Below, in pieces: positions 3,507 through 41,617 of a stretch of 41,617 nt of DNA. This DNA is from a virus. The notes beneath the pieces are model-generated. The model saw nothing but the letters and a program-made list of their open reading frames with translations, made no database searches and was not told where the DNA came from. The DNA lies in IMG/VR virus record IMGVR_UViG_3300023174_008682, positions 1-41,617 of that record; one strand, 5' to 3'. A program made the position numbers and the translations under genes. Numbering within the stretch: position 1 is the stretch's first letter; each line of letters opens with the position of its first letter.

Positions 3507-4369
3507 TATGCTTTATACCCAGTTATGAAACTCTTGATTGTATCTTCTAGGATATCGTCAACATGAGGCATCAGTAAAGCTTCAGAGACTGCCTTGCTTT
3601 CATCCAGTACACAATTTGAGCGCTGAGCCTTGATGTCTAGGTCTTTAATGTCAACCAATTTCCAATTAGGGTTGGTAAGACCGCAGCTAGCAAGCAAATC
3701 AGCTATTTTCTTCCCTGTAATTACTCCAGGATTAACAACATTAAGAGGGCCGACAATACGTGTTAAGGCATTAGTGGTAATTAAATTGTATATAAATGCA
3801 TTCAGGTTGTCAGTGTTTGTTCCACTGTTAGGATGATCAATGATATTGTCATACTTGAATATCTTATATATCAAATTTTTTGGAACAGCTTTGTTATTAA
3901 ATGGCATTCTTATTCTAAGGGTTATAGCGTCAAAATTAGCTAAATTATTTTCACATATGTGTTTTGTTTTGGAGTAGAAGCTACTATCGGGATTATAGAT
4001 ACCAAAATTTGGAATGTCTGTTTCTGTAAAATTCTTTGTGTAGCCTGTATATATGCAGCCTGAGGATACATTTACTAGCTTGATGCCAAGCTTTTCACAA
4101 ATTTTAACCATTCTAAGTGGCAGTGTTACATTGTAAAAGTAACAATTTTCTTTGTCAAGCTCACAAGCATCAACATTGGGTACCCCTGTGTACCCAATGC
4201 AGTTTATCAGTACTGTACAGCCCAAAGTTTTGAGTGTATGCTCCAATTGCTTTGGTTCTGTGTAGTCTAGTTGTGTGCGGTTAATAGTTGTAAGGTTGCA
4301 ACCTCTGTTATTCAGGTGCTCACTCAGTGATGAACCAATAAATCCAGATCCTAGCAGTACTACTTTCAC
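3506..4369 (-). CDS. NAD(P)-dependent sugar reductase/epimerase, RmlD-like SDR
   Basis: An extended short-chain dehydrogenase/reductase of about 287 residues. It opens with MKVVLLGSGFIG, a Rossmann GxGxxG nucleotide-binding loop, has an NVSSG strand and the catalytic YSKTK (YxxxK). The closest known group is dTDP-4-dehydrorhamnose reductase (RmlD) and relatives, which finish nucleotide-sugar synthesis in the cytoplasm. The frame extends to a GTG at 4384, but the GTG at 4369 gives a canonical Rossmann start and lies exactly 6 nt below a sigma70-like -10 box. It may supply a sugar to the glycosyltransferases in this genome. The substrate is not determinable here. Confidence 0.8.
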   Translation of the reverse strand: MKVVLLGSGFIGSSLSEHLNNRGCNLTTINRTQLDYTEPKQLEHTLKTLGCTVLINCIGYTGVPNVDACELDKENCYFYNVTLPLRMVKICEKLGIKLVNVSSGCIYTGYTKNFTETDIPNFGIYNPDSSFYSKTKHICENNLANFDAITLRIRMPFNNKAVPKNLIYKIFKYDNIIDHPNSGTNTDNLNAFIYNLITTNALTRIVGPLNVVNPGVITGKKIADLLASCGLTNPNWKLVDIKDLDIKAQRSNCVLDESKAVSEALLMPHVDDILEDTIKSFITGYKA

Positions 4370-4375
4370 ACAATT

Positions 4376-4403
4376 ATGATACACTATTTGAAGAGAAAAT
4401 CAA
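4376..4403 (-). promoter_or_regulatory. sigma70-like promoter for the SDR gene
   Basis: -35 TTGATT (4398-4403), 16 bp, -10 TATCAT (4376-4381), then 6 nt to the GTG at 4369. This spacing decides the start codon choice. Confidence 0.6.
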
Positions 4404-4714: not shown

Positions 4715-5069
4715 TTGAATTATTTAATGTTTTGGAGTAATATCTGTTGCGACCGGGGTAGTCACTGTTAAAAACACCGTGTTTCATAAGAAAATTAATG
4801 ACAACCTGCATGCTATCTGTCTTGAGAAAGTAACTCTTGGGTATTCTTTCACCCCCATCATCTAGTTCAAAGAGTGTCTCTCCAAGCTCAGTCTTATTAG
4901 CATAGCAAGTGCACATGACAGAATTGAAGCTTGGATTTATCATTACTGTCCATCGCCGTGGGTCACTTTTAGCATAAACTGAAAACAGTCTCAAGACAAC
5001 AAATCCGTTGTCTCGCAATCTCTTGATAAAATATGCTGGTGTTCTTAGTTTATTGTTTGATGTTTTCAT
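4698..5069 (-). CDS. hypothetical protein
   Basis: A 123-residue basic protein with a likely alpha/beta fold. It has an N-terminal RLRDNGFVVLRLFSVY segment and a central MINPSFNSVMCTCY stretch with one Cys pair (CTC). It follows the sliding clamp with a 3-base gap and so is probably co-transcribed with gene 45. I see no catalytic signature. Being next to the clamp suggests a replication or transcription accessory, but nothing in the sequence proves it. Confidence 0.65.
   Translation of the reverse strand: MKTSNNKLRTPAYFIKRLRDNGFVVLRLFSVYAKSDPRRWTVMINPSFNSVMCTCYANKTELGETLFELDDGGERIPKSYFLKTDSMQVVINFLMKHGVFNSDYPGRNRYYSKTLNNSNEKRL
4721..4728 (-). promoter_or_regulatory. T4-late-type promoter ATTAAATA
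   Basis: Leftward ATTAAATA with 6 nt (ATTCAA) before the ATG at 4714. It lies inside the 3' end of the preceding gene. Confidence 0.5.
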
Positions 5070-5072
5070 AAA

Positions 5073-5804
5073 TTAATTAGCTAACGCAGAAACAATGAAT
5101 TTAATGCTGGTATTAATTAAATTGGTTTCAAATACAAACACCCCGATTTTTGATGAAAATGCACAGTTTAGTTCTTTAAACCTCATAGAAGAAATTATTC
5201 TGAATATTTCAAAATTCAATGGTATATTTGAAGCTAATTGTGGGCCTGTATAATTTGTTGATATCTTCAATCCATATGAATCAACGTTAGGCCTGGCTTT
5301 ATCTGTTAATTCACCGTGCACAGTACCATCTTTAAATGATAGATATATTTTATTAGTGTCAGATGCTATGGTACTTCCTTTAATGAGGCTAAGCAGATCA
5401 GTGTACTGCAGCTTGAAAGTTCCATCCATCTTGACCTCATTGAGCTTTTCCATGCTTAGCTTGGGAACAGAAATAATGCCATTCTCAAATAAGTGGTATT
5501 TGAATCGCATATCTGCTGACTTGTATGAGAGTGAATTGTTGTCTAATTCAAATGTAATGCTGTCTTGATTGATAATAGACAGAATGCGGGTTAACTTGCT
5601 CAAGTCAGGGATGTTTAACTGTGTAGGTGCAACTTCTTCACTCAGGTTATAAATGGCATTGAGTATGACAGTATTGTCAGATGTTGCAATGAGTGTTGAG
5701 ATTTGCTTTGACTGAACATTCAAGACAGCACTATTAGCAACCTTGCTTACAGGAATGAGGAAATTGTTAAGAAAAGAGGCTCTATCTTGTAAACATAAAC
5801 TCAT
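5073..5804 (-). CDS. 45: DNA polymerase sliding clamp, T4 gp45-like
   Basis: A 243-residue protein with the beta-rich, low-cysteine pattern of gp45/PCNA clamps (T4 gp45 is 228 residues). Features include an N-terminal helix, repeated beta hairpins such as LSYKSADMRFKYHLFENGII, and an inter-domain region near residue 120. It would encircle DNA, tether the gp43 polymerase and activate gp55-dependent late transcription. It starts 6 nt below a strong sigma70-like promoter. It lies in the T4-core block close to genes 32 and 59. Identification rests on length, fold pattern and context; sequence motifs in clamps are weak. Confidence 0.8.
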   Translation of the reverse strand: MSLCLQDRASFLNNFLIPVSKVANSAVLNVQSKQISTLIATSDNTVILNAIYNLSEEVAPTQLNIPDLSKLTRILSIINQDSITFELDNNSLSYKSADMRFKYHLFENGIISVPKLSMEKLNEVKMDGTFKLQYTDLLSLIKGSTIASDTNKIYLSFKDGTVHGELTDKARPNVDSYGLKISTNYTGPQLASNIPLNFEIFRIISSMRFKELNCAFSSKIGVFVFETNLINTSIKFIVSALAN

Positions 5805-5810
5805 TATTCT

Positions 5811-5838
5811 ATGATAAAGAGTGCGCGCGCAATATCAA
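5811..5838 (-). promoter_or_regulatory. sigma70-like promoter for sliding clamp
   Basis: -35 TTGATA (5833-5838), 16 bp, -10 TATCAT (5811-5816), then 6 nt to the ATG at 5804. The spacer contains an alternating GCGCGCGC run. Confidence 0.65.
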
Positions 5839-6236
5839 GCTTTATTAAGTGCGGTAGCAAGGGTATCAAGCTTACGCTCTATCCTATCTATTGCATCAAA
5901 TATTTGTTTTGAATATGGTGAAGCTTCAAAGTTAAATTCCAATTGGTTAGTGTCATTTGGAATAACAGGTGCATGTAATGATACGGGTGCATGTAATGAT
6001 ACGGGTGCAGGATATGAACCAGACGTCTGGGGCAGTTGTGCTACTTCAGGCCTTGAGACTGCTGATGTTGGTATTGATTTGATAATGTTACCAACATCCA
6101 CATTAACGTGCTGCAATGTTGCAGAACTGTTGATGACACGACTGTTGAGATCTTTGATCTCTCCCATCTGCTGTCCAATGAATTGGATGGTTAGCAGCTT
6201 TGCTTCTTCAGCAGATATGTCTTTGAATGTGTCCAT
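5835..6236 (-). CDS. hypothetical protein with tandem hexapeptide repeat
   Basis: A 133-residue protein lying between the clamp and SSB genes. The N-terminal half (to about residue 50) is helical. A Pro/Ser-rich linker contains a duplicated VSLHAP unit (about residues 78-90) encoded by an 18-base DNA repeat. The C-terminal 40 residues (IFDAIDRIERKLDTLATAL) look like a coiled coil. The start lies 3 bases after the gp32 stop, so it is likely co-transcribed with gene 32. It may be an oligomeric adaptor in replication, but this is inference from context only. Confidence 0.65.
   Translation of the reverse strand: MDTFKDISAEEAKLLTIQFIGQQMGEIKDLNSRVINSSATLQHVNVDVGNIIKSIPTSAVSRPEVAQLPQTSGSYPAPVSLHAPVSLHAPVIPNDTNQLEFNFEASPYSKQIFDAIDRIERKLDTLATALNKA
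5968..6009. repeat. 18-bp tandem repeat, 2.3 copies
   Basis: The unit GGTGCATGTAATGATACG occurs at 5968-5985 and 5986-6003, followed by a partial third copy (GGTGCA). It is in frame and encodes the repeated VSLHAP linker of the overlapping protein. Confidence 0.85.
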
Positions 6237-9945: not shown

Positions 9946-10620
9946 TTAACTCGAGTATTCTCTTAAAAACTTTATCTGACTCTGAGTAAATACAGTATCA
10001 TTCACGTTCATGAGCCCTGGTGACTTGTGGATTACCCATATGGGTGCAACACCAAGCTTGAGCTTTAGTTTATTTGCATCAATGCAGCTAGCAATATCGT
10101 AATGGTGAAATGTATAGTTTTCATTAAACTTCCATCCAGCAGCTTTAATGCTTTCTGTCTTTAAGCTTAGAAACAATCCATCCAACACAGCAACACGACT
10201 TGGTGTAGGGCCAAAGCTGGTTACATGGAAGGTTTGATCATCAATATAATGTGCTACTGCTCCTCTTAAGTTGCCACTGCTGAACCCACCACACATCAGG
10301 TGCCATAATGCTGGTTGGCGTATGATAGGGTTAATACCTCCTGCAAGACCAATAATATCAAACTGTTTGTGATAGAGCTCCAGCTTATTAGTAATATTAT
10401 AATCATCTATTGTAATGTCATCATGGCAAAATACTATGTATTCAAAGTTATTGATTTGTTTTTCCAGGAATGTGTTGTAACACTTGCTGAGTCCAGATTT
10501 ATTATAACTTTCAAAAAAAGGAGTTATATTGGAATCTTTTTCTGCAATCTTGGTTATGCTCTTATAGTACAGTGTATCAGTTATCTTGTTTCTTGTGGCG
10601 CTAAAGAAAGCAGTGCTCAT
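9946..10620 (-). CDS. glycosyltransferase-like protein, StrF/GT-A type
   Basis: A 224-residue protein with a GT-A-like nucleotide-diphospho-sugar fold. Near residue 60 it has YIVFCHDDITIDDYNI, where the HDD provides the metal-binding acidic motif. This is followed by LAGG and a middle region with LDGLFLSLK and a C-terminal HHYDIASC acidic/His pair. This layout matches the StrF-type group of family-2-like transferases. It overlaps the amidotransferase by 4 bases and would be translated from the same leaderless transcript. The acceptor and donor are unknown; it might glycosylate a virion protein, host surface or modified base. Confidence 0.7.
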   Translation of the reverse strand: MSTAFFSATRNKITDTLYYKSITKIAEKDSNITPFFESYNKSGLSKCYNTFLEKQINNFEYIVFCHDDITIDDYNITNKLELYHKQFDIIGLAGGINPIIRQPALWHLMCGGFSSGNLRGAVAHYIDDQTFHVTSFGPTPSRVAVLDGLFLSLKTESIKAAGWKFNENYTFHHYDIASCIDANKLKLKLGVAPIWVIHKSPGLMNVNDTVFTQSQIKFLREYSS

Positions 10621-11303
10621 GATGAAAAGAATGGTGAGTTTGTTTTGAAGTCACCAACTGCAGTCAGACCTTCCACGGTCTGCAAATACAAGGTACCTTC
10701 CTCAAGGGGGTTGAAGCCTGTTGCTCTGATGGAAGAAAAATCATTGGTTAGATAGTTAGCATATAGAGTGCTACCTGAACGAGCAAGATATACATTGTTT
10801 GACTTGTCATTATAAATCCATAAGCCAAAGGTGCCTTGTAGTAGGGATAAGGCTTTGCAAATGCCTTTAACTTCATTCTTTGCCTTGGCTATGTGTATGT
10901 ATACTAGGGGTGGGATAACTGAGGTGTCCACTTCATTTACACATTTAAACTTCTTGAGATCTTTGCGCAGTATATTATGATTTGTGAGCACACCATTGTG
11001 TGCAATATACCACTGCTTCTCATTGAAGGGGTGTGTTGTTTGGTGTGTATACTCGCGCTTGGAAGATGTGGGTGCCTGTGTATGTCCCAGGTAATTCCTG
11101 AAGCTATTCAGTGGCTTTGTTTTGTTGCCTTTCAGCTCAATGCTTAACTTGCCTTTGAAATTGAAGGTTCCCTTCGTCCTCACAATGGCATGTATCTTTG
11201 TGTCAATGAAGAGGCCTCCGTAAGAGAAGTTGCCTCTCTTTTTATTTTGATCGTAAAGCTTAATGTATCTGGTGTAGTCTGAAGAGCCAAATATGCCGCA
11301 CAT
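10617..11303 (-). CDS. class II glutamine amidotransferase (Gat), single domain
   Basis: The start is at 11303 (MCGIFG), giving the N-terminal nucleophile Cys2 required by Ntn glutaminases, rather than the longer frame from 11327. An upstream sigma70-like promoter 6 nt away supports this. Visible motifs are RGNFSYGG (23-30), GHTQAPT (73-79) and AHNG (101-104). The usual Arg of GHTR is Gln here. At 228 residues it has only the glutaminase domain, so the ammonia acceptor domain must be another protein. In archaea and in phage 9g a Gat domain fused to QueC helps make archaeosine (G+). QueC lies one gene away here, suggesting a split Gat/QueC pair. An alternative is a sugar or Asn-type amidotransferase. 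Confidence 0.85.
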   Translation of the reverse strand: MCGIFGSSDYTRYIKLYDQNKKRGNFSYGGLFIDTKIHAIVRTKGTFNFKGKLSIELKGNKTKPLNSFRNYLGHTQAPTSSKREYTHQTTHPFNEKQWYIAHNGVLTNHNILRKDLKKFKCVNEVDTSVIPPLVYIHIAKAKNEVKGICKALSLLQGTFGLWIYNDKSNNVYLARSGSTLYANYLTNDFSSIRATGFNPLEEGTLYLQTVEGLTAVGDFKTNSPFFSS

Positions 11304-11309
11304 CAGATT

Positions 11310-11338
11310 ATTATAATACCAAAGCATAAGTAATTCAA
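11310..11338 (-). promoter_or_regulatory. sigma70-like promoter for Gat-GT operon
   Basis: -35 TTGAAT (11333-11338), 17 bp, perfect -10 TATAAT (11310-11315), then 6 nt to the ATG at 11303 that encodes MCGIFG. It confirms the start that exposes the catalytic Cys. Confidence 0.7.
11325..11332 (+). promoter_or_regulatory. variant late promoter CATAAGTA
   Basis: Rightward CATAAGTA, 7 nt before the ATG at 11340. It is one base from the TATAAGTA used at 29535. It is embedded in the spacer of the divergent early promoter. Confidence 0.4.
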
Positions 11339-11339
11339 G

Positions 11340-12209
11340 ATGAATAATGATGCTAAACTCATATTTGAAGCTTATTTAAACAAAACCAAGATGCTAAGTG
11401 AAATTCCTGCATATGCAGCAGGTGACTTGGATATATCTGAACCCAAGCTTCAAGCAGCTCCTGGTGGTGGATATGGACTAAAGACAGCAGCTGCAAAAAC
11501 AGGTAAGACAATGAAACAAGTTTCTGATGAACTAGTTAAAAAAATTCAAGCAACACTTTTCAAGCCGGAATCACATACCGTTGATGGTGTTGAATACAAC
11601 CTTTTCTACCCCGGTAATGACATGAAGCTGAGAAATGATCTGCAGAATTTAGTTCAAAAAGAATTGGGTCTTGGTAAGACTGAAGCTAATTATACTGCAA
11701 GAATAGTACGTAATATGCTCAATATAGTTGTAAAAGATGATGCTACTGGTGGTGTAGCGGTGCAGGCTGATAAAGTTAAATCTGCTATACAGGCAGCTGT
11801 GTCAAGTACTACAAAAACAGAAACAGTATATGAAATTGATAAAGCTGTAAAACTTGCGGATAAAAATATTAAAATGATAGTTAATAGTTTACCAGATGAG
11901 GATGTGGGAGAGAGGGAGATATTGGGTGTATTGAAAGCAGCAATAAAAGAATTTAATGAAGCACCTGGTAGGGGCAAGGGAGATATGATTAAAGTGAAGT
12001 CATATGACTTGCTTGATAAATTAAAAGAAGCAGGTGTATTGAAGGAGAAGCAGGTGGAAGTGCAGTCTAAGGAAGGTGAGGGTACAGGTGAAGTGACAAA
12101 TATTGATGATGTGCCAGAGTATGATGATGTGGGGCAAGCAGCAAAAGAGTTAGGCTATATTAACAGGGGTAGAGGCAGAGATCCAGGCAGCTTTAGTTTC
12201 GGTGACTAA
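11340..12209 (+). CDS. probable virion/internal protein
   Basis: A 289-residue protein oriented against the surrounding early genes. The N-terminus MNNDAKLIFEAYLNK contains IFEA, resembling the I/L-x-E prohead-protease site found in T4-type capsid-targeted proteins. The rest is helical and Ala/Lys/Val-rich without catalytic motifs. The C-terminus is Gly/Asp/Arg-rich (INRGRGRDPGSFSFGD). The orientation and a late-like CATAAGTA element suggest late expression. It overlaps the convergent QueC gene by 17 bases. I infer a structural or internal head protein; no family name is claimed. Confidence 0.65.
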   Translation: MNNDAKLIFEAYLNKTKMLSEIPAYAAGDLDISEPKLQAAPGGGYGLKTAAAKTGKTMKQVSDELVKKIQATLFKPESHTVDGVEYNLFYPGNDMKLRNDLQNLVQKELGLGKTEANYTARIVRNMLNIVVKDDATGGVAVQADKVKSAIQAAVSSTTKTETVYEIDKAVKLADKNIKMIVNSLPDEDVGEREILGVLKAAIKEFNEAPGRGKGDMIKVKSYDLLDKLKEAGVLKEKQVEVQSKEGEGTGEVTNIDDVPEYDDVGQAAKELGYINRGRGRDPGSFSFGD

Positions 12210-12939
12210 TCAATCTGCACTTATATTTTTCCCAGGGTAGTGTTATCTTATATGGTATGGGGTCTATATACTTTGCATCCATAAAGCCTTTTATGCGCAA
12301 AGAGCATGCAGTACATTCACCACAAGCTTGCTCTTCTCCCTCATAGCAAGTCCATGTCTGACTAAAATCCACTCCAAGTTTTATACCCAGTTTAATGATT
12401 TCCTCTTTAGATTTATCGATTAACGGTGCTTGTACTGTAATTTTATTTCTACGGTTCAAAGCTGACACTTTGTTAATTTGCTCCAGAAATTCTTCACTGC
12501 CATCCCAGAACCCTGCAACACTGTCGGCTTGTGCAGCACCATGAAAAACAGTGCTAGCTCCATAGTTTTCTGCTATTGCTAGCGATATGCTGAGTAACAT
12601 TAAATTTCTATAAGGAACGTAGTTTACTGTCTGAGGGTCACCCATTACATCTTTAGCTTTAGCTACTGCGACCTTGTTGTTGAGAAGTGAAGATACTTGA
12701 CAGATATCTTTAAAAAACGGTAATTTTATGTGTTGACTATCAACAGGTATATCAACTGATTCAATCTGAAATGATGCACAATTTATTTCCTTATTGCGAT
12801 GTTTCTGCCCGTAGTCATAGTTAACTGCAATTACTTTATCATACCTACTTGCAGCCATATGTAACAGCACAGAGCTGTCCATACCACCACTGATGGGTAC
12901 TACTGCCTTACTGGATGGGCTCTTCTGTTTGCGCTTCAT
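12193..12939 (-). CDS. queC: 7-cyano-7-deazaguanine synthase QueC
   Basis: A 248-residue PP-loop ATPase that converts CDG to preQ0 using ATP and ammonia. The PP-loop SGGMDSS spans residues 17-23, and the C-terminal zinc set is C198, C206, C209 and C212 (C-x7-C-x2-C-x2-C). The length is normal for QueC (about 230). It overlaps uvsX by 32 bases, so it shares that transcript. With FolE, QueD and QueE in this same window, the phage can make preQ0 from GTP. The nearby free-standing Gat domain may act with it, as in Gat-QueC fusions that form the amidine of G+. Confidence 0.93.
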   Translation of the reverse strand: MKRKQKSPSSKAVVPISGGMDSSVLLHMAASRYDKVIAVNYDYGQKHRNKEINCASFQIESVDIPVDSQHIKLPFFKDICQVSSLLNNKVAVAKAKDVMGDPQTVNYVPYRNLMLLSISLAIAENYGASTVFHGAAQADSVAGFWDGSEEFLEQINKVSALNRRNKITVQAPLIDKSKEEIIKLGIKLGVDFSQTWTCYEGEEQACGECTACSLRIKGFMDAKYIDPIPYKITLPWEKYKCRLISHRN

Positions 12940-17058: not shown

Positions 17059-17087
17059 ATTATACAAGGCATTACTGATTATATCAA
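17059..17087 (-). promoter_or_regulatory. sigma70-like promoter for DNA polymerase
   Basis: -35 TTGATA (17082-17087), 17 bp, perfect -10 TATAAT (17059-17064), then 5 nt to the GTG at 17053. ATAATCAGT occurs twice in this short region. Confidence 0.7.
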
Positions 17088-18295
17088 TAACTATTAATTT
17101 TGTTGAGCAGTACCCGCTCCGGAGCATTAACAGGGTAATTATAAAGCTCATAATATTTAGAAATATTTTCTTCATTCTCCAAGAAGCGCGACTCTGCAAC
17201 CTTTCTGCACTTTGTGGAAATATTCATGTACCGGCCCTTCTTGGAAAGGGTATCATCGATTTGATCTATCATTTCATCCCCAGTCTTGAACTTGATTGGA
17301 GCAGCTTCATATGTCTCCATATCTTGGCATGCAATGGGTATACCATAACAACTGGCTTCAATATGTTTCAAGTCACTCTTGGCTTTATTGAAGGTGTTGT
17401 TCTGCAAAGGTGCAACCATCATATTAACTCTCAAGTTGTAAATTTTTTCAGGATATTTATAAAGCTGTTCCCATGGATGGAACTCAATCTTACCTGCTTT
17501 AGCTAAGTGACCTAAGGGCAGAGGAAAGGCACCTAGGAATACCCATTGATACTTGTCTGATGTTTTGGTGATAATTTCACATACATGAGCAAAATCATCA
17601 TTCTGACCAACCCTATTCTCAACATCAAAATGTGCGCCAGAGCCTGCATATAGAATACGTGGTCTCTTCTCATAAAGATCATAATTTTCTGAAATGCGCT
17701 TTTCACTATAAAAATTACCCATCCACCATTTGGGAGGGTAGTTAGGAATGACTGTAACGTTCTTATTATTTGTTTTACTTTTATAATAATCTCTCATGTA
17801 ATTGCAGGTTACAGTAACTTCATCACACATCTCCATGATCTCTTGACAATATTTGCGGATATTAGGGTCTGTAAAAGCTGGTTTGAACTTATTATATTCA
17901 GGTATGTCTTCATGAAAGACAAGATCGTCAATTTCATATATAAGACGGAATCCAACTTGTTTTTGTATTTCTTTTAGATGTCTAACAAATTTTAACTGGT
18001 GTTCTGTAGCTTGGCGTTGAATACGAATGGCTTTAACGCCTCTATAATAATTAGGGTCCAATACCATCACTGTGCTTCCATGAACAATCATCTTTTGATG
18101 AGCATTGAGAAGATGTTCTGGCCAGATCATTCTCCAGAATCCGCATCCACTATAGTCAGCGTAGTAGTTTAAGGCGCGATTTAAAGATAGTTCTGGTGGG
18201 GGTGGTAATGATTCAGGTTGACGGGGAGCACCTTGTGAGAAGCCAGTACCGAAGGGGGTTGCAAAAGGAGCAGGGAAGGGAGAAACACTAAACAT
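17084..18295 (-). CDS. glycosyltransferase, GT4/GT-B-like
   Basis: A 403-residue protein with a Pro/Phe/Gly-rich N-terminal 40 residues and then a two-domain GT-B layout. The N-domain includes FRLIYEIDDLVFHEDIPEYN, a signature common in phage and bacterial GT4-like enzymes. The C-domain has RILYAGSGAHFD, WVFLGAFPLPLG and a donor-site region DLKHIEASCYGIPIACQD (E-x7 type). It would act in the cytoplasm, transferring a sugar from a nucleotide donor. It sits between the polymerase and gp46, where marine T4-like phages often carry such genes. Acceptor unknown. Confidence 0.8.
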   Translation of the reverse strand: MFSVSPFPAPFATPFGTGFSQGAPRQPESLPPPPELSLNRALNYYADYSGCGFWRMIWPEHLLNAHQKMIVHGSTVMVLDPNYYRGVKAIRIQRQATEHQLKFVRHLKEIQKQVGFRLIYEIDDLVFHEDIPEYNKFKPAFTDPNIRKYCQEIMEMCDEVTVTCNYMRDYYKSKTNNKNVTVIPNYPPKWWMGNFYSEKRISENYDLYEKRPRILYAGSGAHFDVENRVGQNDDFAHVCEIITKTSDKYQWVFLGAFPLPLGHLAKAGKIEFHPWEQLYKYPEKIYNLRVNMMVAPLQNNTFNKAKSDLKHIEASCYGIPIACQDMETYEAAPIKFKTGDEMIDQIDDTLSKKGRYMNISTKCRKVAESRFLENEENISKYYELYNYPVNAPERVLLNKINSY

Positions 18296-29548: not shown

Positions 29549-29977
29549 GTGATTATTTTTGAGAAGTTATTTATTGAGGCCATTGATAATGATTTAGTTA
29601 GCAAGGGACCAATTTTGAGTGTAATAGAGGAATTAGATATAGAAGGAATCGGCAAAGTGAAAGCCAAGGTTGACACAGGAAATGAAGCATACAATGTGCT
29701 GCATGGTACAGATATTACCTATGCAGATAACTCAGCAACATTTAAGACAGTTAATAATGTGACAGTAACGAAACCTGTCTTGAAAAAGATAGAGATTAAT
29801 ATAGGCAGTGGTAATATTGAGAGCAGACCTGTTGTAGAGATGCCTTTCACTATGCATGGTAAGAAGTATACAACACCATTCAGCATAGCTGACAGAAGCA
29901 CCAATGAAGAGCCTGTGTTACTTGGTGAAATTTTTCTCAGTAAAATAGGTGCAACTGTTGATGTGAATTTAAATTAA
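29549..29977 (+). CDS. retropepsin-like protease (putative ATP-dependent zinc protease family)
   Basis: A 142-residue protein starting at GTG 29549: MIIFEKLFIEAIDND, again a capsid-targeting-like leader with I-x-E. KAKVD42TG44 gives the D-T-G of aspartic, retropepsin-like proteases. The C-terminal PFSIADRSTNEEPVLLGEIFLSKIG fits the 'DR....P.LLG..FL' signature of the RimB/zinc protease family (Pfam PF05618 as I recall it). A cytoplasmic or head-packaged protease is possible. It converges with folE and overlaps it by 9 bases. The call is good at fold level; the substrate is unknown. Confidence 0.78.
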   Translation: MIIFEKLFIEAIDNDLVSKGPILSVIEELDIEGIGKVKAKVDTGNEAYNVLHGTDITYADNSATFKTVNNVTVTKPVLKKIEINIGSGNIESRPVVEMPFTMHGKKYTTPFSIADRSTNEEPVLLGEIFLSKIGATVDVNLN

Positions 29978-30625
29978 TTTACGATTCTGCGCAAATTCAA
30001 TAAACTTATAAAACTCATTGCGTGAATTGTCTTTGTCATCCAAGAATGCACCAGACATTCTGGCAGTACGCATTGTTGAGTCATGTCTGATGCCGCGGTT
30101 AGAACAACATGTATGTGCAGCTTCAATCATTACTGCAACACCTTTATTTTTGCAACATACTTCATCAATATATTTGTGAACTTGCATTGTTAAATTTTCC
30201 TGCACTTGAGGGCGGCGAGCAAACCAGTCGACAATGCGATTGAGTTTGCTCAATCCAATGACCTTGCCATCTGTAGCAGGAATATAAGCTACATGTGCAA
30301 ATCCCATGAATGGTGCATGATGATGAGAGCAGAGTGATGTGAGTTTGATGTTGTTCTGACAAACCATGCCATCATATTGATCAATGTTCTCAAAAGCAGT
30401 TACTTTTGGTGGATTGCTGTAACACCCAGCAGCAAAATCATCCACAAAAGCCTTGGCCACTCGGAGTGGTGTATTGGAGCTGTTGGGATCATCCCTCCAG
30501 TCATATCCCAGTGCATCCATGTATGCCTCATAAGCTTTTGCAGCTTTCTGTATGATTGCACTGCGCTCTTCTGCAGTGTGTGGATGATTGTGATTGGCAA
30601 ATTGAAAGCGCTTAGGATTACTCAT
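29969..30625 (-). CDS. folE: GTP cyclohydrolase I, FolE
   Basis: A 218-residue enzyme converting GTP to dihydroneopterin triphosphate, the first step to preQ0 (and to folate). Zinc ligands are C99 and H102 in TSLCSHHHAPF, and C173 in AAHTCC. The signature GLSKLNRIVDWFARRPQVQE is intact. The length is normal. It has its own sigma70-like promoter 7 nt upstream of the ATG. The -35 box abuts the late promoter of the divergent gene at 30672. With QueD, QueE and QueC in the window it completes a preQ0 route. Confidence 0.96.
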   Translation of the reverse strand: MSNPKRFQFANHNHPHTAEERSAIIQKAAKAYEAYMDALGYDWRDDPNSSNTPLRVAKAFVDDFAAGCYSNPPKVTAFENIDQYDGMVCQNNIKLTSLCSHHHAPFMGFAHVAYIPATDGKVIGLSKLNRIVDWFARRPQVQENLTMQVHKYIDEVCCKNKGVAVMIEAAHTCCSNRGIRHDSTMRTARMSGAFLDDKDNSRNEFYKFIEFAQNRKLI

Positions 30626-32437: not shown

Positions 32438-33142
32438 ATGAAATTTAGCAGTACAAAAATAATTGAATTAGGAAGTTGTGCATTTAGACAATGGAAAGCA
32501 GATAGTCATTGCAAATTCATACATGGATATAGATTGATAGCCAAGTTTTATTTTACATGTGATTATTTGGATGAGAGGAACTGGGTTGTTGACTTTGGTG
32601 GATTGAAGGCACTTAAAAGCGTCTTAGAAAAACAATTTGATCATACATTCTGTGTGTCTGCTGATGATCCTTTGTTGGAACAATTCAAAGCTTTACATGC
32701 TTCAGGTGCTGCTGATCTGAGAATCATGGAAAAAGGTGTTGGTATAGAGAGAACAACAGAATGGTGTTTTGAAATAGCAGATGCACATGTTAGAGGCATT
32801 ACAAATAACAGATGCTGGGTGGAGAAAGTTGAAGTATGGGAGCATGATAAAAACTCTGCAATTGCAGAATATGCTGCACCTGCAACATTTGTCAATAGCA
32901 AACACAATACAAAAGTGGAAGGTAAGTTTATTGCTGAACAATTGGAACTCCACATGGATCATCCTTTGGATATTCCTTATGCAACAGCTGTGGGTGCACC
33001 TGCACCAGGAATTACACGCGTATCTGCAGGTGGTCAAGTGGATGATACACCCCTCAAGACAGAGATCAAAGGTGCACCAATTGGTAACAAGACAACCACA
33101 GGTTTTGGTAATCTCTTTGGCGGTACTTCATGGGGGACGTAG
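32438..33142 (+). CDS. queD: 6-carboxytetrahydropterin synthase-like QueD, extended
   Basis: A 234-residue QueD/PTPS-family protein, the second preQ0 step. The core (1-140) has DSHC25KFIH29GY31, equivalent to C-x3-HGH with the catalytic Cys, WVVDFGGLK, the FDHTFCV His, and ADAHVRGI/VEKVEVWEHDKN at the C-end of the T-fold. Two of the usual zinc histidines appear changed: HGH is HGY, and the first His region reads SCAFRQW. About 90 extra residues (Pro/Gly/Thr-rich) follow the normal end. It is probably functional in a phage-specific variant form. Confidence 0.85.
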   Translation: MKFSSTKIIELGSCAFRQWKADSHCKFIHGYRLIAKFYFTCDYLDERNWVVDFGGLKALKSVLEKQFDHTFCVSADDPLLEQFKALHASGAADLRIMEKGVGIERTTEWCFEIADAHVRGITNNRCWVEKVEVWEHDKNSAIAEYAAPATFVNSKHNTKVEGKFIAEQLELHMDHPLDIPYATAVGAPAPGITRVSAGGQVDDTPLKTEIKGAPIGNKTTTGFGNLFGGTSWGT

Positions 33143-34299: not shown

Positions 34300-35037
34300 A
34301 TGGACGGTACACTCTTTCTTAGTGATGATAAGATATTCCATACCGTAGAAGGCGAAGGCGAGCATGTGGGTAAACCTTCAGTTTTCATGCGTGTTGCCAT
34401 GTGCAATTTGACATGCCAAGGCTTCAAGAGCAAGGACTCGCCCTATGGTTGTGATAGTTTTGTTAGCTGGTCTGTCAAGAACAAAATGTCCAATGGCAAC
34501 ATACTTGACCTGCTGGATAAAAGTGGTTATGTGGAATTTTTACGCAGAGGTGACATATTAAAAATAACTGGTGGTGAGCCTTTGATTCAACAGAAAAGTT
34601 TACTTGCATTAATTGATGACTTTGTTGAGCGCTTCAGCTTCATACCAAGAATAGATTTCGAAACAAACGCTACAATCATGCCTCTACCTAAATGGTATGA
34701 AACATATTTTGCCACATTCACAACTTCACCAAAGCTGACCAATAATGGTGACCCTGAAGAGAAGCGGTACAAACCTGAAGTATTAGAATGGCATGCAAAG
34801 AATGGTTCAGGATTCAAGTTTGTTGTTTCAAAAGAAGAGGATCTTAAGGAAATTATAGAAAAGTATGTAGCCCGGTTTAACATTAGACGCAGCAAGATCT
34901 GGTTGATGCCATGCTGTGGCAGCAGACAGGAGCATGTTACAATTGCACCTTTAGTTGCTGAATTTTGTAAAACCACAGGGTTCAATTTTAGCCCTCGACT
35001 GCAGCTTGTCATCTGGGATAAAGCTTTAAAAGTTTAA
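34300..35037 (+). CDS. queE: 7-carboxy-7-deazaguanine synthase-like QueE (radical SAM)
   Basis: A 245-residue radical SAM enzyme, third preQ0 step (CPH4 to CDG). IFHTVEGEGEHVGKPSVFMRVAMC is a typical QueE N-terminus. The cluster cysteines are C35, C39 and C51, that is C-x3-C-x11-C rather than the canonical C-x3-C-x2-C. GGEP (91-94) is the SAM-binding motif. WLMPCCGSR occurs near the C-terminus. It has its own sigma70-like promoter. The epimerase follows after 3 bases. Marine phage QueE-like proteins of this type are known; the altered cluster motif deserves attention. Confidence 0.88.
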   Translation: MDGTLFLSDDKIFHTVEGEGEHVGKPSVFMRVAMCNLTCQGFKSKDSPYGCDSFVSWSVKNKMSNGNILDLLDKSGYVEFLRRGDILKITGGEPLIQQKSLLALIDDFVERFSFIPRIDFETNATIMPLPKWYETYFATFTTSPKLTNNGDPEEKRYKPEVLEWHAKNGSGFKFVVSKEEDLKEIIEKYVARFNIRRSKIWLMPCCGSRQEHVTIAPLVAEFCKTTGFNFSPRLQLVIWDKALKV

Positions 35038-35040
35038 AAT

Positions 35041-36084
35041 ATGAATATTCTTGTTACCGGTTCTGCCGGGTTAATAGGATCCGCAGTTGTGAGACATTTC
35101 TGTCAGCAAGATAATACTGTGCATGGCATTGACAATAACATGCGCAAAGTGTTCTTTGGTGCCGATGGGTGCACAGATAGAAATACAAAAAGGTTAAGAA
35201 AAACTTTCAGCAATTTCAGGCATCTCAAATATGACATACGCAATAGAGATAAAATATTAAGCCTATTTGCAGATACAAAATTTGATGTAATAATTCACAC
35301 TGCAGCTCAGCCAAGTCATGATCTAGCTGCAAAAATTCCTTTTGATGATTTCGATACTAATGCTGTTGGTACATTGAATCTACTGGAAGCAACAAGACAA
35401 CACTGCCCTGAAGCTATCTTTATTCATATGTCCACAAACAAAGTATATGGTGATAACCCCAATAAATTGCATCTCATGGAGTACGAGAAACGATTTGATT
35501 ATGCTGATAGTGTATATCCTGGTATATCTGAAACATTTGACATTGATAACTGCAAACACTCTCTTTTTGGAGCTTCAAAAGTTGCCGCAGATATTCTCGT
35601 GCAAGAATATGGCAGATACTTCAATATTAAAACTTGCTGCTTGAGAGGTGGCTGTCTCACTGGACCCGATCATAGTAGCGTTGAGCTTCATGGCTTTTTA
35701 AGCTATCTGGTAAAATGTAATATCACTAAAACACCTTACAAAGTATTTGGATACAAAGGCAAGCAAGTGCGCGACAACATACACAGCTTTGATGTTGTGA
35801 GGTTCATGGACCATTTTATTGCTTCGCCAAAAGTAGCAGCTGTCTACAACATTGGTGGTGGCAAGCAAAACAGTTGCTCCATTCTGGAAGCTTTTGATAG
35901 AGTAGCTAGTATTACTGGCCGACGGATGGACTATGAATACATTGACTGTGCTAGAGAGGGTGATCATATTTGCTATTATTCCAATCTAGCAAAGATGAAG
36001 ACAGATTATAAAGATTGGGACATCACCAAGAATTTAGATGATATTTTCATAGAAATAGTTAATTCACATTTGAAAAAGCTTTAA
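35041..36084 (+). CDS. NAD-dependent sugar epimerase, CDP-tyvelose/paratose epimerase-like
   Basis: A 347-residue extended SDR. The Rossmann loop GSAGLIG spans 7-13. [16 protein letters not shown] is typical of the CDP-paratose 2-epimerase group. STNKVYGD follows the catalytic Thr/Ser region, and SLFGASK carries K180, with Phe176 where the catalytic Tyr of YxxxK normally sits. [22 protein letters not shown] is a strong subgroup signature. It would act on a nucleotide sugar in the cytoplasm for the nearby glycosyltransferases. It follows queE by 3 bases and shares its transcript. Confidence 0.87.
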
Positions 36085-36851: not shown

Positions 36852-37070
36852 GTGAGTAATTTTAATAAGAAGGTAGAAGAGCTTCAAGAAAGCTTCCGTT
36901 CCATAGTATATAAGAAGCGCGAATTTTATCCTAAAAATTTTAACCTGTCAGAAGACTTTGTTAAAGCATTCAAGAGTGAATACAAGAGACTCATAGATGA
37001 AGGGCTAGAACCAAAGAAAGCTTTGGTACGTCTCAATAAGGCCCTTTTATTTCACACTGTCAATCAATAA
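36852..37070 (+). CDS. hypothetical small protein, late-promoter linked
   Basis: A 72-residue basic, helical protein starting at GTG 36852 (MSNFNKKVEELQESFRS). The late promoter spacing supports this start. Segments KKREFYPKNFNLSEDFVKAFKSEYKRL suggest a small DNA-, RNA- or protein-binding role. It converges with the virion-like gene at 37064 with a 7-base overlap. No family recognised. Confidence 0.62.
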   Translation: MSNFNKKVEELQESFRSIVYKKREFYPKNFNLSEDFVKAFKSEYKRLIDEGLEPKKALVRLNKALLFHTVNQ

Positions 37071-37753
37071 TTGTAAACCAATCTCCAGTACATCAGATTG
37101 CCTACAGCTGCAGACTGTACCTCCATGCTATTAATAACAAAGGTGAGAATACCAGTATTGGCATTATAAGTAAGACCTTGGATGCGTGGCATATAATTAT
37201 ATGCTGCATAAGAAACAGTAGGTGAATAATATGGTGTCAGATATATATGAAATGGTTTGATCAGACCTCCAATATTACTAGGCACCGTTATTCCCACAGC
37301 ATTGCTTGCAGAAGCACCTTGTTGAAATACTGCGGTACCTGTTTGCTCGTACACTACATTAGTTGATGAAGTAGTTGCTATTGTTGTCAGTAGAGCCTGA
37401 TACTCTGGTGAGCCTGTAACGTAAGTAGCAGATGTAACAACACCATTTGTTATCTCCACCCTGTTATAATAGCTCATTGATCTGTTAACACCTGTCTTGC
37501 CATTGCTTGTGTAGGATTGGGCGCTCAATGTATCGAGCGTAAGTGTTGTCAATAATGCATCGTTGCCTGTTAGGGATCCTAGCACAGTCGCATTACCATA
37601 GAGATCAGTCTTCACTACATTAAAATCATTAAACGTAATTATCTGTGTACCATTGCTTGTTTGCAGAATAAGATTATCTGTTGCTAGAGCCAATTGTGCT
37701 GGTGGTAGATTCAGAATACTTACTGTGGTGCTATTTGTACTATCGATTGCCAT
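37064..37753 (-). CDS. probable tail/fibre-associated virion protein
   Basis: A 229-residue protein of the Ser/Thr/Asn/Tyr-rich, cysteine-free, beta-strand type typical of phage fibres, whiskers and neck proteins. It begins MAIDSTNSTTVSILNLPPAQLALATDNLILQ in part, has internal NGxxTxxxTLxGN segments, and ends in an aromatic Tyr-rich domain. A perfect TATAAATA lies 6 nt before its ATG. It stands alone on the minus strand in front of the glycosyltransferase block, which could modify it or its receptor. Exact role unknown. Confidence 0.68.
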   Translation of the reverse strand: MAIDSTNSTTVSILNLPPAQLALATDNLILQTSNGTQIITFNDFNVVKTDLYGNATVLGSLTGNDALLTTLTLDTLSAQSYTSNGKTGVNRSMSYYNRVEITNGVVTSATYVTGSPEYQALLTTIATTSSTNVVYEQTGTAVFQQGASASNAVGITVPSNIGGLIKPFHIYLTPYYSPTVSYAAYNYMPRIQGLTYNANTGILTFVINSMEVQSAAVGNLMYWRLVYNY

Positions 37754-37786: not shown

Positions 37787-38596
37787 ATGAGTAAAATTGG
37801 TATAGGCATAGTTACTTGCAATAGACCAGCATTTCTGCTCAAATGCTTCAATTCTATACCTAAAGCGGATGAGTTGGTTATTGTCAATGATGGTGCAGAT
37901 TTTAGTGATATAGACAAGTTAAAAGCAAAAAGAGCCTTTCAATATATTCATAATAAAGTCAATTTAGGTGTTTCCAAGTCTAAAAATATACTCTTTAGAA
38001 ATTTATTACAGAAAAACTGTACTGATATTTTTATTATTGAAGATGATATCATAGTTAAAGATGCAAATGTTTTTAATGAATATATAAAAGCAAGAAACAT
38101 AACAGGTATTCAGCATTTCATGTTTGGCTATCATGGACCTGCAAATAAGGCAGGTGTTTCAGGTGGCAAAGCCAAGCCGAAATATGTTATTGACTATGGT
38201 AAGATGAAGATCGCTATCAATGAGCATAGCGTTGGTGCATTTTGTTATTACACAAGTGATGTGCTCAATAAAGTAGGTATTTTCGATGAACAGTTTACCA
38301 ATGCCTTTGATCATGTAGATCATGATTATAGGATTGCCAAGGCAGGCTTTTCACCACCCTATTGGAATTGGCCTGACCTTGCTAACAGCATGGATTACCT
38401 CGAGGAAATTGAATGCTCTGAAGCAAGCAGTACTATTAGACCTAGGAGCGATTGGAGAGAGAATATAGAAAAAGGCGTTGTATACTTTAAACAAAAGCAT
38501 GGGTACCTCCCTGCTTGGCAGGGATGTGTACCCGACACATCAGAGGATGAAGTTAAGAAGATACTAAAAACAATTTACAAGAAATATGCTAAATAA
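37787..38596 (+). CDS. glycosyltransferase family 2
   Basis: A 269-residue GT-A enzyme. IGIGIVTCNRPAFLLKCF is the classic GT2 N-terminal strand and turn. It is followed by ELVIVNDGAD and IFIIEDDIIV (metal-binding DxD-like EDD), with FDHVDHDYRIAKAGF as the acceptor-side acidic region. AAAGAG lies about 6 nt upstream of the start. It opens a rightward, overlapping series of glycosyltransferases running to the window edge. Acceptor unknown. Confidence 0.88.
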   Translation: MSKIGIGIVTCNRPAFLLKCFNSIPKADELVIVNDGADFSDIDKLKAKRAFQYIHNKVNLGVSKSKNILFRNLLQKNCTDIFIIEDDIIVKDANVFNEYIKARNITGIQHFMFGYHGPANKAGVSGGKAKPKYVIDYGKMKIAINEHSVGAFCYYTSDVLNKVGIFDEQFTNAFDHVDHDYRIAKAGFSPPYWNWPDLANSMDYLEEIECSEASSTIRPRSDWRENIEKGVVYFKQKHGYLPAWQGCVPDTSEDEVKKILKTIYKKYAK

Positions 38597-39941
38597 ATAC
38601 TTTGACTGCATCTATGTTATCAATCTGAAGCGACGCCCTGACCGCTTAGCTCATATCACCGAACAGCTTACACAAGTTAATATTGCATTCAAGCTAATTG
38701 ATGCTGTTGATGGGAATGATGTGAAGTGTAACCTCAAGGTAGGTAATGGTTGGAATTACAAGGGTGTTACAGGATGTGCATATAGCCATAAAAAAGTTTA
38801 TGAAGATGCACTCAATAATAACTTTAAAAAAATATTAATTGTTGAAGATGATAATATTTTTGCTGACAAGTTTGTTGAAAAATTCTCTCATTTTATAAAA
38901 CAAGTACCAGCTAACTGGGATATGCTTTATTTTGGAGGCAATCATCAAAGCAGACCAAAGGCTATCAACATAAATGTTGAACAAATAACACACACCTATA
39001 CAACAAACTGTTATGCCATTTGCTGTGATGTATTGCCAGAGCTCTTGAAGTATCTTCCCAGTGACACAGAAAAACTGCCAATGCCAATTGATGTGTTGCT
39101 CACAACAATACAAAAAAGAGGCAATAGCTACTCACACAAACCACATATCTGCTGGCAGCTTGGTGATTTCTCTGACATAGAAAACAAGCAACAGGAGACA
39201 CCATATCTTAAGTCACATGCCAAGAAAGCATCGCTCATCATCTCATCCTTCAATCAAAGTAAGAGATTAAAATTTTGCCTGCAGAGTGCAATCAATCAGC
39301 ATTATGAAAACTATGAAGTTATTTTGGCCGATGATAATTCCACTGATAGTACCCTCACAATAGCTGAGGAAATGTTTCCTGGCGTGCAGGTATCGCTCAA
39401 TAAGAAATCACAAAAAAATAAATATACTCTGGCTGACAATTGGAACACTGCTGTAAAATTAGCATCAGGAGAGAGACTCATTTTCACTAATGGTGACAAT
39501 CTGCTCTCACCTAGATTTGTTGCTGCTCACATGGATCCTGCAATGCAAAATGATATTATTTTTGGTCCAAATGAACGTACTACAGAAGAAATTGTACCAC
39601 TTTTAGATAGCAATAATACACATCGTGAATTATTGAGTCATATAAAAATTATTGAAAAGGATTTGCGACAAGATGGTAGTTCATACACTTACAATCAACT
39701 TTTCAACACCTGGTATCCATGGGGTAATAATTTCTCTGTACCTGCAGATATCTTTAGAGATGCAGGTGGTTTCCCACCAAAAACTTTTTATGGAGGAGAA
39801 GAGAAAGAGCTTCTTGATAATATAGTACAAAAATCTAATAATATTAAAATCAAGTCAAATGTACATGCATACACATTGCACCTATGGCATCCACAATTCA
39901 ATAACACAGAAACCAGAGCAAGAGAAGAATATTTTTTATGA
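38586..39941 (+). CDS. two-domain glycosyltransferase: GT25-like plus GT2
   Basis: A 451-residue fusion. Residues 1-200 are GT25-like: YVINLKRRPDRLAHITEQL, then IDAVDG, GCAYSHKKVYEDAL and ILIVEDDN, as in LPS galactosyltransferases. Residues 215-451 are GT2-like: ASLIISSFNQSKRLKFCLQS, EVILADDNSTDST and NWNTAVKLASGERLIFTNGDN. Two different catalytic domains in one chain suggest sequential addition of two sugars. It overlaps the previous gene by 11 bases and the next by 4. Confidence 0.88.
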   Translation: MLNKYFDCIYVINLKRRPDRLAHITEQLTQVNIAFKLIDAVDGNDVKCNLKVGNGWNYKGVTGCAYSHKKVYEDALNNNFKKILIVEDDNIFADKFVEKFSHFIKQVPANWDMLYFGGNHQSRPKAININVEQITHTYTTNCYAICCDVLPELLKYLPSDTEKLPMPIDVLLTTIQKRGNSYSHKPHICWQLGDFSDIENKQQETPYLKSHAKKASLIISSFNQSKRLKFCLQSAINQHYENYEVILADDNSTDSTLTIAEEMFPGVQVSLNKKSQKNKYTLADNWNTAVKLASGERLIFTNGDNLLSPRFVAAHMDPAMQNDIIFGPNERTTEEIVPLLDSNNTHRELLSHIKIIEKDLRQDGSSYTYNQLFNTWYPWGNNFSVPADIFRDAGGFPPKTFYGGEEKELLDNIVQKSNNIKIKSNVHAYTLHLWHPQFNNTETRAREEYFL

Positions 39942-40717
39942 TATGTTACCCCCTACTGGGCAAAAATGGTGAGTTTGGCAATCAACTATTTCAAATAGCA
40001 GCAACATTATCTCATGCAAAAGATAACAACACAAATGCTTTATTTCCCGCGTGGAACTACATGAATTTATTTAAAACTAAATTAAATTTAAATTTCAATC
40101 AAGCAGATGTTAAAAATAAATATTCTGAAAAAAATCTATACTACAACTCTATTCCCAATCTGCCTGACTTAGCACTCTATGGGTATTTTCAATCAGAAAA
40201 ATATTTTAAACATAATTCTGAACATATTAAACATCATTTTACATTTCTTGATGATCTAGAGACACATGTAAAGACAAAATATACTTTTCTTAGTAACGAT
40301 GATACAGTTGGTGTGCATTTGAGAACATATTCTCGTGGTGCAATAGATCCAAGACATGTTCATGCAGATGTTCTTGAAAATGTAGCTTACCTGAAGCAAT
40401 CATTTAATTATTATGGCAAGAATAAGAGATTTGTAGTTTGCAGTGATAATATTGCTAAAGCTGAACAGATACTTGGTGGTAATTTAAATTTAACTTTTAT
40501 TAAGAGTGGTGATTTAATTAATGATTTCATTGTGCTGAAGAATTGCAGAAACCATATCAATTCTGCTTCTTCATTTAGCTGGTGGGCATCATGGTTGAAC
40601 AATAATAAAGATAAGAAAATTACTGTGCCGCAGAAGTGGTTCAATGTGACACCAGAGCAGGATTCATGGTATAATTCTAAAGATATTGTACCCGAGGATT
40701 GGATAAAATTAGGATAG
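39938..40717 (+). CDS. GT11-like alpha-1,2-fucosyltransferase
   Basis: A 259-residue GT-B protein with GT11 hallmarks. The N-terminus is YPLLGKNGEFGNQLFQIAA (GxGNQxFQ). GYFQSEKYF precedes VGVHLRTYSRG, the HxRRGD-like donor-binding segment in a variant form, then FVVCSD and the C-terminal SASSFSWWASWL. GT11 enzymes transfer fucose from GDP-fucose to galactose in alpha-1,2 linkage, as in H-antigen synthesis. It overlaps both neighbours. The HxRRGD variation could alter donor use, so activity on fucose is inferred. Confidence 0.88.
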   Translation: MICYPLLGKNGEFGNQLFQIAATLSHAKDNNTNALFPAWNYMNLFKTKLNLNFNQADVKNKYSEKNLYYNSIPNLPDLALYGYFQSEKYFKHNSEHIKHHFTFLDDLETHVKTKYTFLSNDDTVGVHLRTYSRGAIDPRHVHADVLENVAYLKQSFNYYGKNKRFVVCSDNIAKAEQILGGNLNLTFIKSGDLINDFIVLKNCRNHINSASSFSWWASWLNNNKDKKITVPQKWFNVTPEQDSWYNSKDIVPEDWIKLG

Positions 40718-41550
40718 AGTGTATCATATGCAATATGTTTGAACCGGTTTTACAGTCTGGCTTTTGGGGAGGGTTACCGTTCCCCAAATTCAAGAAACCC
40801 ATCTTAATTTGTCATGATGGCTTTTGTCAGAAAATTTTTAATGAGAACAAAGACAATTTTAAAGTTTTTATACAAGGCTGTGAACCTGTGCAAGCATTCT
40901 ACTTAAGTCATCCTAATTTTGATAAAAATATATTAAAGCAGTTTGATCTTGTTCTATACCATGATTCCTCCTTTGCCCTGGGCAAGACCAATAAAATCTT
41001 TCCATTTGGCACCTGCAGGATATCAGATAAATTTAAAAAGACCGCTACAAATTATGAAGTATCATTTATTTGTGGAACAAAAAATTATCTCCCCGGCCAC
41101 AATCTCAGACATGAAGTTTACAAGAGATTAGGTGAGATACAAAATTTATCCATAAAGGCTTATTATACTTTCCCTGCAGGTACATCAGGCAGATGTGAGC
41201 CAAAAGATGATATCTTTGCCACATCACAATTTTCTATTGTAATTGAAAATCATAGAAATGAAAATTACTTCACAGAGAAGCTCATAGATTGTTTAGTAGC
41301 TGAAACAATTCCTTTCTACTGGGGATGCTCTAATATTGATGAGTATTTTAATAAACAAGGTATTATAAAATTTAATGATGCTAATGATTTGTTTGAGAAG
41401 CTCAAGCTAATAACACCTGAATTATACAAAAGTAAAGGGAATATCATAAGAGAGAATAAACAAACAGCATTGCAATATGCTGGTAATTTTGAGACATCAC
41501 CTCAGTTTTATGTTGATAGGGTAGTTAGAGAGATAAATTCATTATTATGA
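40699..41550 (+). CDS. GT10-like alpha-1,3/4-fucosyltransferase
   Basis: Up to 283 residues. The donor-binding signature is complete: FSIVIENHRNENYFTEKLIDCL followed by IPFYWG, matching GT10 enzymes such as Helicobacter FutA (F..ENs..Y.TEKi..a.....IPiYWG). The frame opens with TTG at 40699; an ATG at 40735 is an alternative start that would trim the first strand. GT10 proteins add alpha-1,3 or 1,4 fucose (Lewis-type). It overlaps the GT11 gene by 19 bases and the next gene by 4. Fucose as donor is family knowledge, not shown here. Confidence 0.9.
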   Translation: MDKIRIECIICNMFEPVLQSGFWGGLPFPKFKKPILICHDGFCQKIFNENKDNFKVFIQGCEPVQAFYLSHPNFDKNILKQFDLVLYHDSSFALGKTNKIFPFGTCRISDKFKKTATNYEVSFICGTKNYLPGHNLRHEVYKRLGEIQNLSIKAYYTFPAGTSGRCEPKDDIFATSQFSIVIENHRNENYFTEKLIDCLVAETIPFYWGCSNIDEYFNKQGIIKFNDANDLFEKLKLITPELYKSKGNIIRENKQTALQYAGNFETSPQFYVDRVVREINSLL

Positions 41551-41617
41551 CAATAGACATCGTCTTCATTGGTACAGGTAAATATATTGACTTTCTGCCT
41601 TCATTCTATAAGAGTGT
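41547..41617 (+). CDS. GT6-like glycosyltransferase, N-terminus only
   Basis: An ATG at 41547 overlaps the previous stop by 4 bases and the frame is open for 23 residues to the window edge: MTIDIVFIGTGKYIDF then LPSFYKS. This matches the N-terminal strand of family 6 enzymes (the ABO blood-group and bacterial GT6 group), which read I-x-I-x-[FY]-x-x-T-G-K-Y-x-x-F-x-x-x-F-Y-x-S. GT6-like genes are known in marine cyanophage. Only the first strand and helix are visible, so the rest, including the metal-binding motif, is unseen. Confidence 0.6.
   Translation, partial: MTIDIVFIGTGKYIDFLPSFYKS

Follow-up and report, generated by a model that had tools for sequence, protein, structure and literature searches.

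Five glycosyltransferase genes lie in one direction at the right end of a stretch of viral DNA 41,617 bases long (IMG/VR virus record IMGVR_UViG_3300023174_008682, positions 1 to 41,617; "the window" below), in the order GT2, GT25-GT2, GT11, GT10 and the start of GT6. The tandem of GT11, GT10 and GT6, which follows a GT2 gene and a GT25-GT2 fusion, is a real cluster. In animals, enzymes of these three families make the sugars of the ABO and Lewis blood groups. A plausible product is a surface glycan of the host with a branched, fucosylated cap, and we give about an even chance to what seems to us the most likely role of the genes, the building and capping of a fucosylated oligosaccharide on the host envelope. 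The core of the cluster, GT11 followed by GT6, is already common in aquatic phages and annotated in many cyanophages. What is new here is the GT10 gene between GT11 and GT6, a sub-clade of GT11 with a variant motif, and a cassette whose content can be swapped.

The window and its glycosyltransferase genes

The window ends on the right inside a gene and is therefore a fragment. Among its genes are T4-type replication genes, and its DNA polymerase gp43 is about 30% identical to cyanophage and pelagiphage counterparts. We looked for psbA in the window and did not find it; a cyanophage identity has no support from psbA or from close gp43 similarity.

The first gene of the cluster (37787..38596, +) encodes a GT2-type glycosyltransferase (PF00535, E 8.5e-6; phrog_2456, E 2.3e-25) and has the same position in four related loci, L012, L274, L275 and L276. 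In L012 a gene that by eye resembles GuaC/IMP dehydrogenase (4898-5863) directly precedes it; this gene is absent from the window. The second gene (38586..39941, +) encodes a two-domain glycosyltransferase, with GT25 at the N-terminus (PF01755, E 2.7e-21) and GT2 at the C-terminus (PF00535, E 2.6e-20), the two matches falling in separate stretches of the protein. It is 65-73% identical in L272-L276. Two further glycosyltransferase-like genes lie outside the operon, one GT2-type (PF13712; 9946-10620, -) and one GT4-like (phrog_7162; 17084-18295, -).

The open reading frames, Pfam and PHROG matches and synteny with L274 agree with the earlier note that GT11, GT10 and GT6 genes follow one another at 39938-41617. 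The same note had them overlapping head to tail, which holds firmly at one of the two junctions. GT10 and GT6 share 4 nt (41547-41550, ATGA), a firm overlap that recurs in L274, and the GT25-GT2 and GT11 genes upstream firmly share 4 nt as well (39938-39941). The overlap of GT11 with GT10 hinges on a TTG start at 40699. The ATG at 40735 encodes M13 of this reading frame, which is invariant in the alignment with L274 and L273. Judged by this alignment, it is the likely start of GT10 in place of the TTG, and a 17-nt gap would then follow GT11.

T4-like phages are known for DNA-modifying glucosyltransferases, and the five genes might be taken for enzymes of T4-type DNA glucosylation. We reject this role, for which we see hardly any chance at all: none of the five has a DNA glucosyltransferase family as its best match, and the window has, apart from them, a 7-deazaguanine gene set that could provide for DNA modification. 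That set comprises the preQ0 (7-cyano-7-deazaguanine) pathway genes for QueC (12193-12939, -), FolE (29969-30625, -), QueD (32438-33142, +) and QueE (34300-35037, +), and is reminiscent of phage 7-deazaguanine DNA modification. In such phage systems QueC is sometimes fused to a class-II glutamine amidotransferase; the window has a separate gene for one at 10617-11327 (-).

GT11 with a variant motif

The GT11 (alpha-1,2-fucosyltransferase family) gene (39938..40717, +) encodes a protein of 259 aa that matches PF01531 with E 3.4e-16 (59.8 bits, above the cut-off of 23.9) and phrog_2644 with E 7.7e-36. Its AF2 model (pLDDT 91) has the GT-B fold of the fucosyltransferase superfamily. All 50 PDB matches listed in the fold search are fucosyltransferases (FUT8, POFUT1, AtFUT1, NodZ), at moderate TM-scores of 0.5-0.6. 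A phmmer comparison with the PDB gave only chance matches to bacterioferritin, and it was the fold search that resolved the identity. By profile and predicted fold, the protein is a divergent member of GT11. A bacterial relative (35%) is found in a Woesebacteria MAG contig (L277), which may itself be viral.

Alpha-1,2-fucosyltransferases carry the motif HxRRxD, in which the first arginine is reported to be critical (PMC4202792). In the window this motif I is replaced by the variant VGVHLRTYSRGAIDPR (40307..40354, +). Where HxRRxD would stand the protein has HLRTYS, so that the histidine and the first arginine are kept while the second arginine and the aspartate are replaced, and the specific claim of an alpha-1,2-fucosyltransferase is weakened by this. 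To our knowledge, POFUT1 also lacks the second arginine. The four closest distinct relatives have HLRTYS (L274), QLRTYS (L276), QIRTYS (L012) and QLRTYT (L273), followed in each case by xGxIDPR, and the five clade members together share V-G-V-[HQ]-x-R-T-Y-[ST]-x-G-x-I-D-P-R. Most other phage GT11 proteins retain HxRRGD or a near form. Since the variant is conserved although the four relatives are only 49-58% identical to the window protein, the replacement suggests selection for a function rather than decay.

If the substitution has changed what the enzyme does, the clade may no longer be specific for fucose or for the alpha-1,2 linkage. It would then use another GDP-sugar or acceptor, and its product would not be H-like. 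This is one of two serious rivals to a fucosylated host cap. It gains from the variant being present in all five members and from the lack of detected GDP-fucose genes in the records of the clade. But the first arginine is kept in all five, the predicted fold matches fucosyltransferases including POFUT1, and the order of GT11 and GT6 is preserved, directly in L276 and with GT10 between them in L274 and the window. On balance we regard a changed specificity as unlikely, if well worth bearing in mind.

Genes for GDP-mannose dehydratase and GDP-fucose synthase were searched for in the window and in the records of its closest relatives, all of them fragments, one of 105 kb, and none scored over the cut-off. 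What matched weakly in the window were short-chain dehydrogenases of other kinds (35041-36084 and 3506-4384). If fucose is used, it would therefore come from the host or from genes in an unseen part of the genome. Other phages do have such genes nearby. ACG-2014f has an annotated GDP-mannose dehydratase near GT11 and GT6, in S-SRM01 both this enzyme and a GDP-fucose synthase are annotated close to GT11 and GT10, and in the L015 record both profiles are matched along with GT11 and GT6. S-SCSM1 has been described with both GDP-fucose genes and an alpha-1,2-fucosyltransferase (PMC9602691). The gene at 35041-36084 (+), between QueE and a kinase-like gene, resembles nucleotide-sugar epimerases. We considered it as a supplier of the GT10 donor, an idea that is weakened because L274 has the order GT11-GT10-GT6 without this epimerase; L276 also lacks it at that place.

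GT10

The GT10 (alpha-1,3/4-fucosyltransferase family) gene (40699..41550, +) encodes a protein that matches PF00852 with E 1e-6 (29.0 bits, above the cut-off of 23.9) and the structure 2nzw with E 9.7e-8. Its orthologue in L274, 69% identical, reaches 18.4 bits against PF00852 on its own. A single-sequence search found no relatives of GT10; an alignment-based search did. The top Foldseek matches of its model are HpFucT and FUT9. The nucleotide-binding motif FSIVIENHRNENYFTEKLIDCLVAETIPFYWG (41230..41325, +) aligns residue by residue with FNLCFENTQGYGYVTEKIIDAYFSHTIPIYWG of HpFucT, and the alpha-1,3-FucT motif (ENx...Y.TEK...P.Y.G) is present in the alignment with 2nzw.

The truncated GT6 gene

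The contig ends 23 codons into the last gene, the 5' end of a GT6 (ABO transferase family) gene (41547..41617, +). The final 71 bases, starting at 41547, read MTIDIVFIGTGKYIDFLPSFYKS(V). A search among viral contigs with the exact 32 bases from the contig end gave no match, and thus no direct extension.

The 24-mer encoded by these 71 bases matches phrog_3317 with E 3.6e-5. Full-length members of phrog_3317 belong to PF03414, which is GT6, and most of their length can be aligned to human ABO transferase and BoGT6a. In a comparison with a phage GT6 profile the 24-mer scores 26.6 bits, and 2000 shuffles of it reach 6.3 at most. It has 61 matches in 50,697 phage records; the 30 of these that were listed fall at the beginning of a glycosyltransferase gene, in many cases one annotated as family 6. 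Among all open reading frames of the scanned loci it matches 88 GT6 frames and nothing else. In L274, which has the same gene order, GT6 is complete and carries DSD and HDETHLN at the DXD/NXN and HDES.LN sites, which in the window would lie beyond its end. By these matches the truncated gene is GT6, its identity being settled by synteny with L274. The family assignments of the earlier note were thus right, including this one from 23 codons, borne out by the profile score, the shuffles and L274.

The note had also called for a look at the GT6 metal-binding motif. It is present as DSD in the syntenic L274 protein, and phage GT6 relatives have the DXD form: DAD in 79 of the 80 scored (L192-L271), and DSD in L274 and L276. 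In bacteria, most GT6 enzymes have NXN and need no metal (PMC3961637), so that the lack of a metal-binding motif would not have spoken against GT6. Metal dependence is predicted from the DXD motif, and in that respect the phage enzymes may be closer to those of vertebrates.

How widespread is the pairing

GT6 occurs in 71 of the 50,697 phage records, 64 of them from Synechococcus or Prochlorococcus phages, and in at least 406 viral contigs. In the best 80 of these, GT11 is in the neighbourhood of GT6 every time (80/80), and it stands immediately upstream in 77 of the 79 with room there; all 80 are at least 58% identical to the query and form one lineage group, not independent cases. Given this regularity, the GT11 and GT6 steps are probably functionally coupled, in keeping with an order of H first and A/B second. 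GT11 followed directly by GT10 is frequent as well, with 19 pairs, two being the window's own (W and L001) and 17 lying elsewhere. Three other loci (L021, L106 and L107) have all three families in a different order, and the order GT11-GT10-GT6 was seen in no locus other than the window and L274.

Cyanophage GT6 has been on the published record since 2014 at the latest (PMC3961637). Because the core pair is widespread and annotated, the surprise implied by the earlier note at three families in one operon was overstated.

Sister phages and a cassette of changing content

The closest counterpart, L274 (IMGVR_UViG_3300017788_003683), has GT2, GT25-GT2, GT11, GT10 and a complete GT6; its GT11 is 58% identical to that of the window. 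Its right end is complete, with an unassigned 176-aa gene and then a DUF366-type gene after GT6. Wherever the flanks of the sister loci are readable, GT2, GT25-GT2 and GT11 are kept on the left. On the right are the DUF366-type gene and a gene of 123/124 aa, with a Cpn10-like gene in L273 and L276. Between these flanks L274 has GT10, GT6 and the 176-aa gene; in L276 GT10 is missing and GT6 is accompanied by four other genes; and L273 has GT10 and two genes that by eye are transferase-like, but no GT6. Read from gene content, then, this is a swappable cassette, in which the left genes are common to close relatives while GT10 and GT6 differ among them. The pattern is similar to that of host-recognition islands in T4-like marine phages, which are variable and contain glycosyltransferases (PMC7029224).

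Two suggestions can be made from this. The first is that a small T4-like clade carries, at a fixed site, a swappable cassette for different ABH/Lewis-like host caps, with a GT11 of new active-site motif. GT2, GT25-GT2 and the variant GT11 would be the left border, DUF366 and the co-chaperonin the right one, and GT10, GT6 and other transferases would be exchanged between them. We put this forward tentatively, as something that could be so but more probably is not. The second is that the glycosyltransferases were gained singly as accessory genes with no joint product, and are adjacent because of recombination at a hot spot. The coming and going of GT10 and GT6, with other transferase-like genes in place of GT6 in L273, is what such acquisition would produce. 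Yet GT11 followed by GT6 is too regular for it, even though the loci counted are close relatives of one query, and we find it very improbable.

What the enzymes might make

Our preferred reading is that the genes cap a glycan of the host, and the donors, linkages, acceptor and biological purpose that follow are what we infer; the analysis itself shows the gene order, the families, the folds, the active-site features that GT10 conserves and the coupling of GT11 with GT6 across phages. The cassette would belong to a part of a T4-like phage genome that varies and is of the host-recognition type. Its enzymes would act during infection, extending and capping an oligosaccharide, most likely lipopolysaccharide or some other glycan of the host envelope. 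Backbone or core sugars might be added by GT2 and GT25-GT2, an alpha-fucose or closely related sugar by GT11 onto a galactose-like residue, and a second, branching fucose by GT10. GT6 would place alpha-Gal or alpha-GalNAc beside the sugar added by GT11, as ABO transferases do on the H antigen. The altered surface could block superinfection by competing phages or change the recognition of the cell. For islands of this kind in T4-like marine phages, the current proposal is that they modify the surface (PMC7029224, PMC9602691).

Host-glycan capping is favoured by the families and their synteny, the fold matches, the alignment of GT6 relatives to ABO transferase and BoGT6a and the GT11-GT6 pairing. 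The GDP-fucose genes near such transferases in other phages and, by analogy, the E. coli O86 pair described below also point to it. Counting against it are the GDP-fucose genes not found in the fragments of the window and clade (the host could supply the donor), the degenerate second arginine and aspartate of GT11 motif I, and a GT6 represented here by 23 codons. The earlier note had gone further and named an ABH/Lewis-like cassette. That reading is supported in part. Three families in one operon and the coupling of GT11 to GT6 stand; an ABH/Lewis product is unsupported, because GT11 also includes the alpha-1,3-fucosyltransferase HhFT2 (PMC4202792) and the family does not fix donors, acceptors or linkage.

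The other serious rival is that the cassette decorates the phage's own particle, its tail fibres or capsid, and not the host surface. Chloroviruses glycosylate their own capsids, and the operon adjoins a variable fibre-like gene. This gene (37064-37753, -), which faces the glycosyltransferase operon, by eye encodes a fibre-like or structural protein and has no family match; homologues of varying length and C-terminal sequence occupy the same place in L012, L274 and L276. An envelope polysaccharide is the better fit for a set of several enzymes that includes GT25, an LPS-type family, and for the usual pairing with nucleotide-sugar genes in cyanophages. We think particle decoration distinctly unlikely.

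If the products are as proposed for host-glycan capping, phages would offer a large and as yet unexplored supply of fucosyl- and Gal/GalNAc-transferases of blood-group type, among them prokaryotic GT6 of the DXD type, unlike the NXN enzymes of bacteria. The tight pairing of GT11 and GT6 gives a directly testable reaction order; no experiment with a phage GT6 or GT11 is known to us. The exchange of GT10 and GT6 among sister phages would, if true, show how phages vary the glycan imposed on their hosts.

Comparison with known systems

Other systems offer partial parallels. The cyanomyoviruses S-CAM9, S-PRM1, Bellamy, S-8S5x, DSL-LC03 and ACG-2014f likewise have GT11 upstream of GT6, mostly overlapping or adjacent, inside a glycosyltransferase cluster of a T4-like phage. 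Their cassettes differ in having no GT10 between the two in the loci read, and motif I of GT11 is canonical in those that were aligned. In several, an epimerase gene lies immediately upstream or a GDP-mannose dehydratase is annotated close by. In E. coli O86 the GT11 enzyme WbwK and the GT6 enzyme WbnI make a blood-group-B-like O-antigen (PMC4202792). There too one GT11 and one GT6 occur together, in that case acting on one surface glycan, but the genes belong to a bacterial chromosomal O-antigen cluster and are experimentally characterised. BoGT6a of Bacteroides ovatus consists of the GT6 catalytic domain only, as does phage GT6, and differs in being NXN and metal-independent (PMC3961637), whereas the phage proteins here have DXD. 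The alpha-1,3-fucosyltransferase of Helicobacter pylori (2nzw) is the best fold match of the window GT10, which keeps its C-terminal motif but is shorter (271-283 aa) and has a poorly predicted N-terminus (pLDDT <50, residues 1-27).
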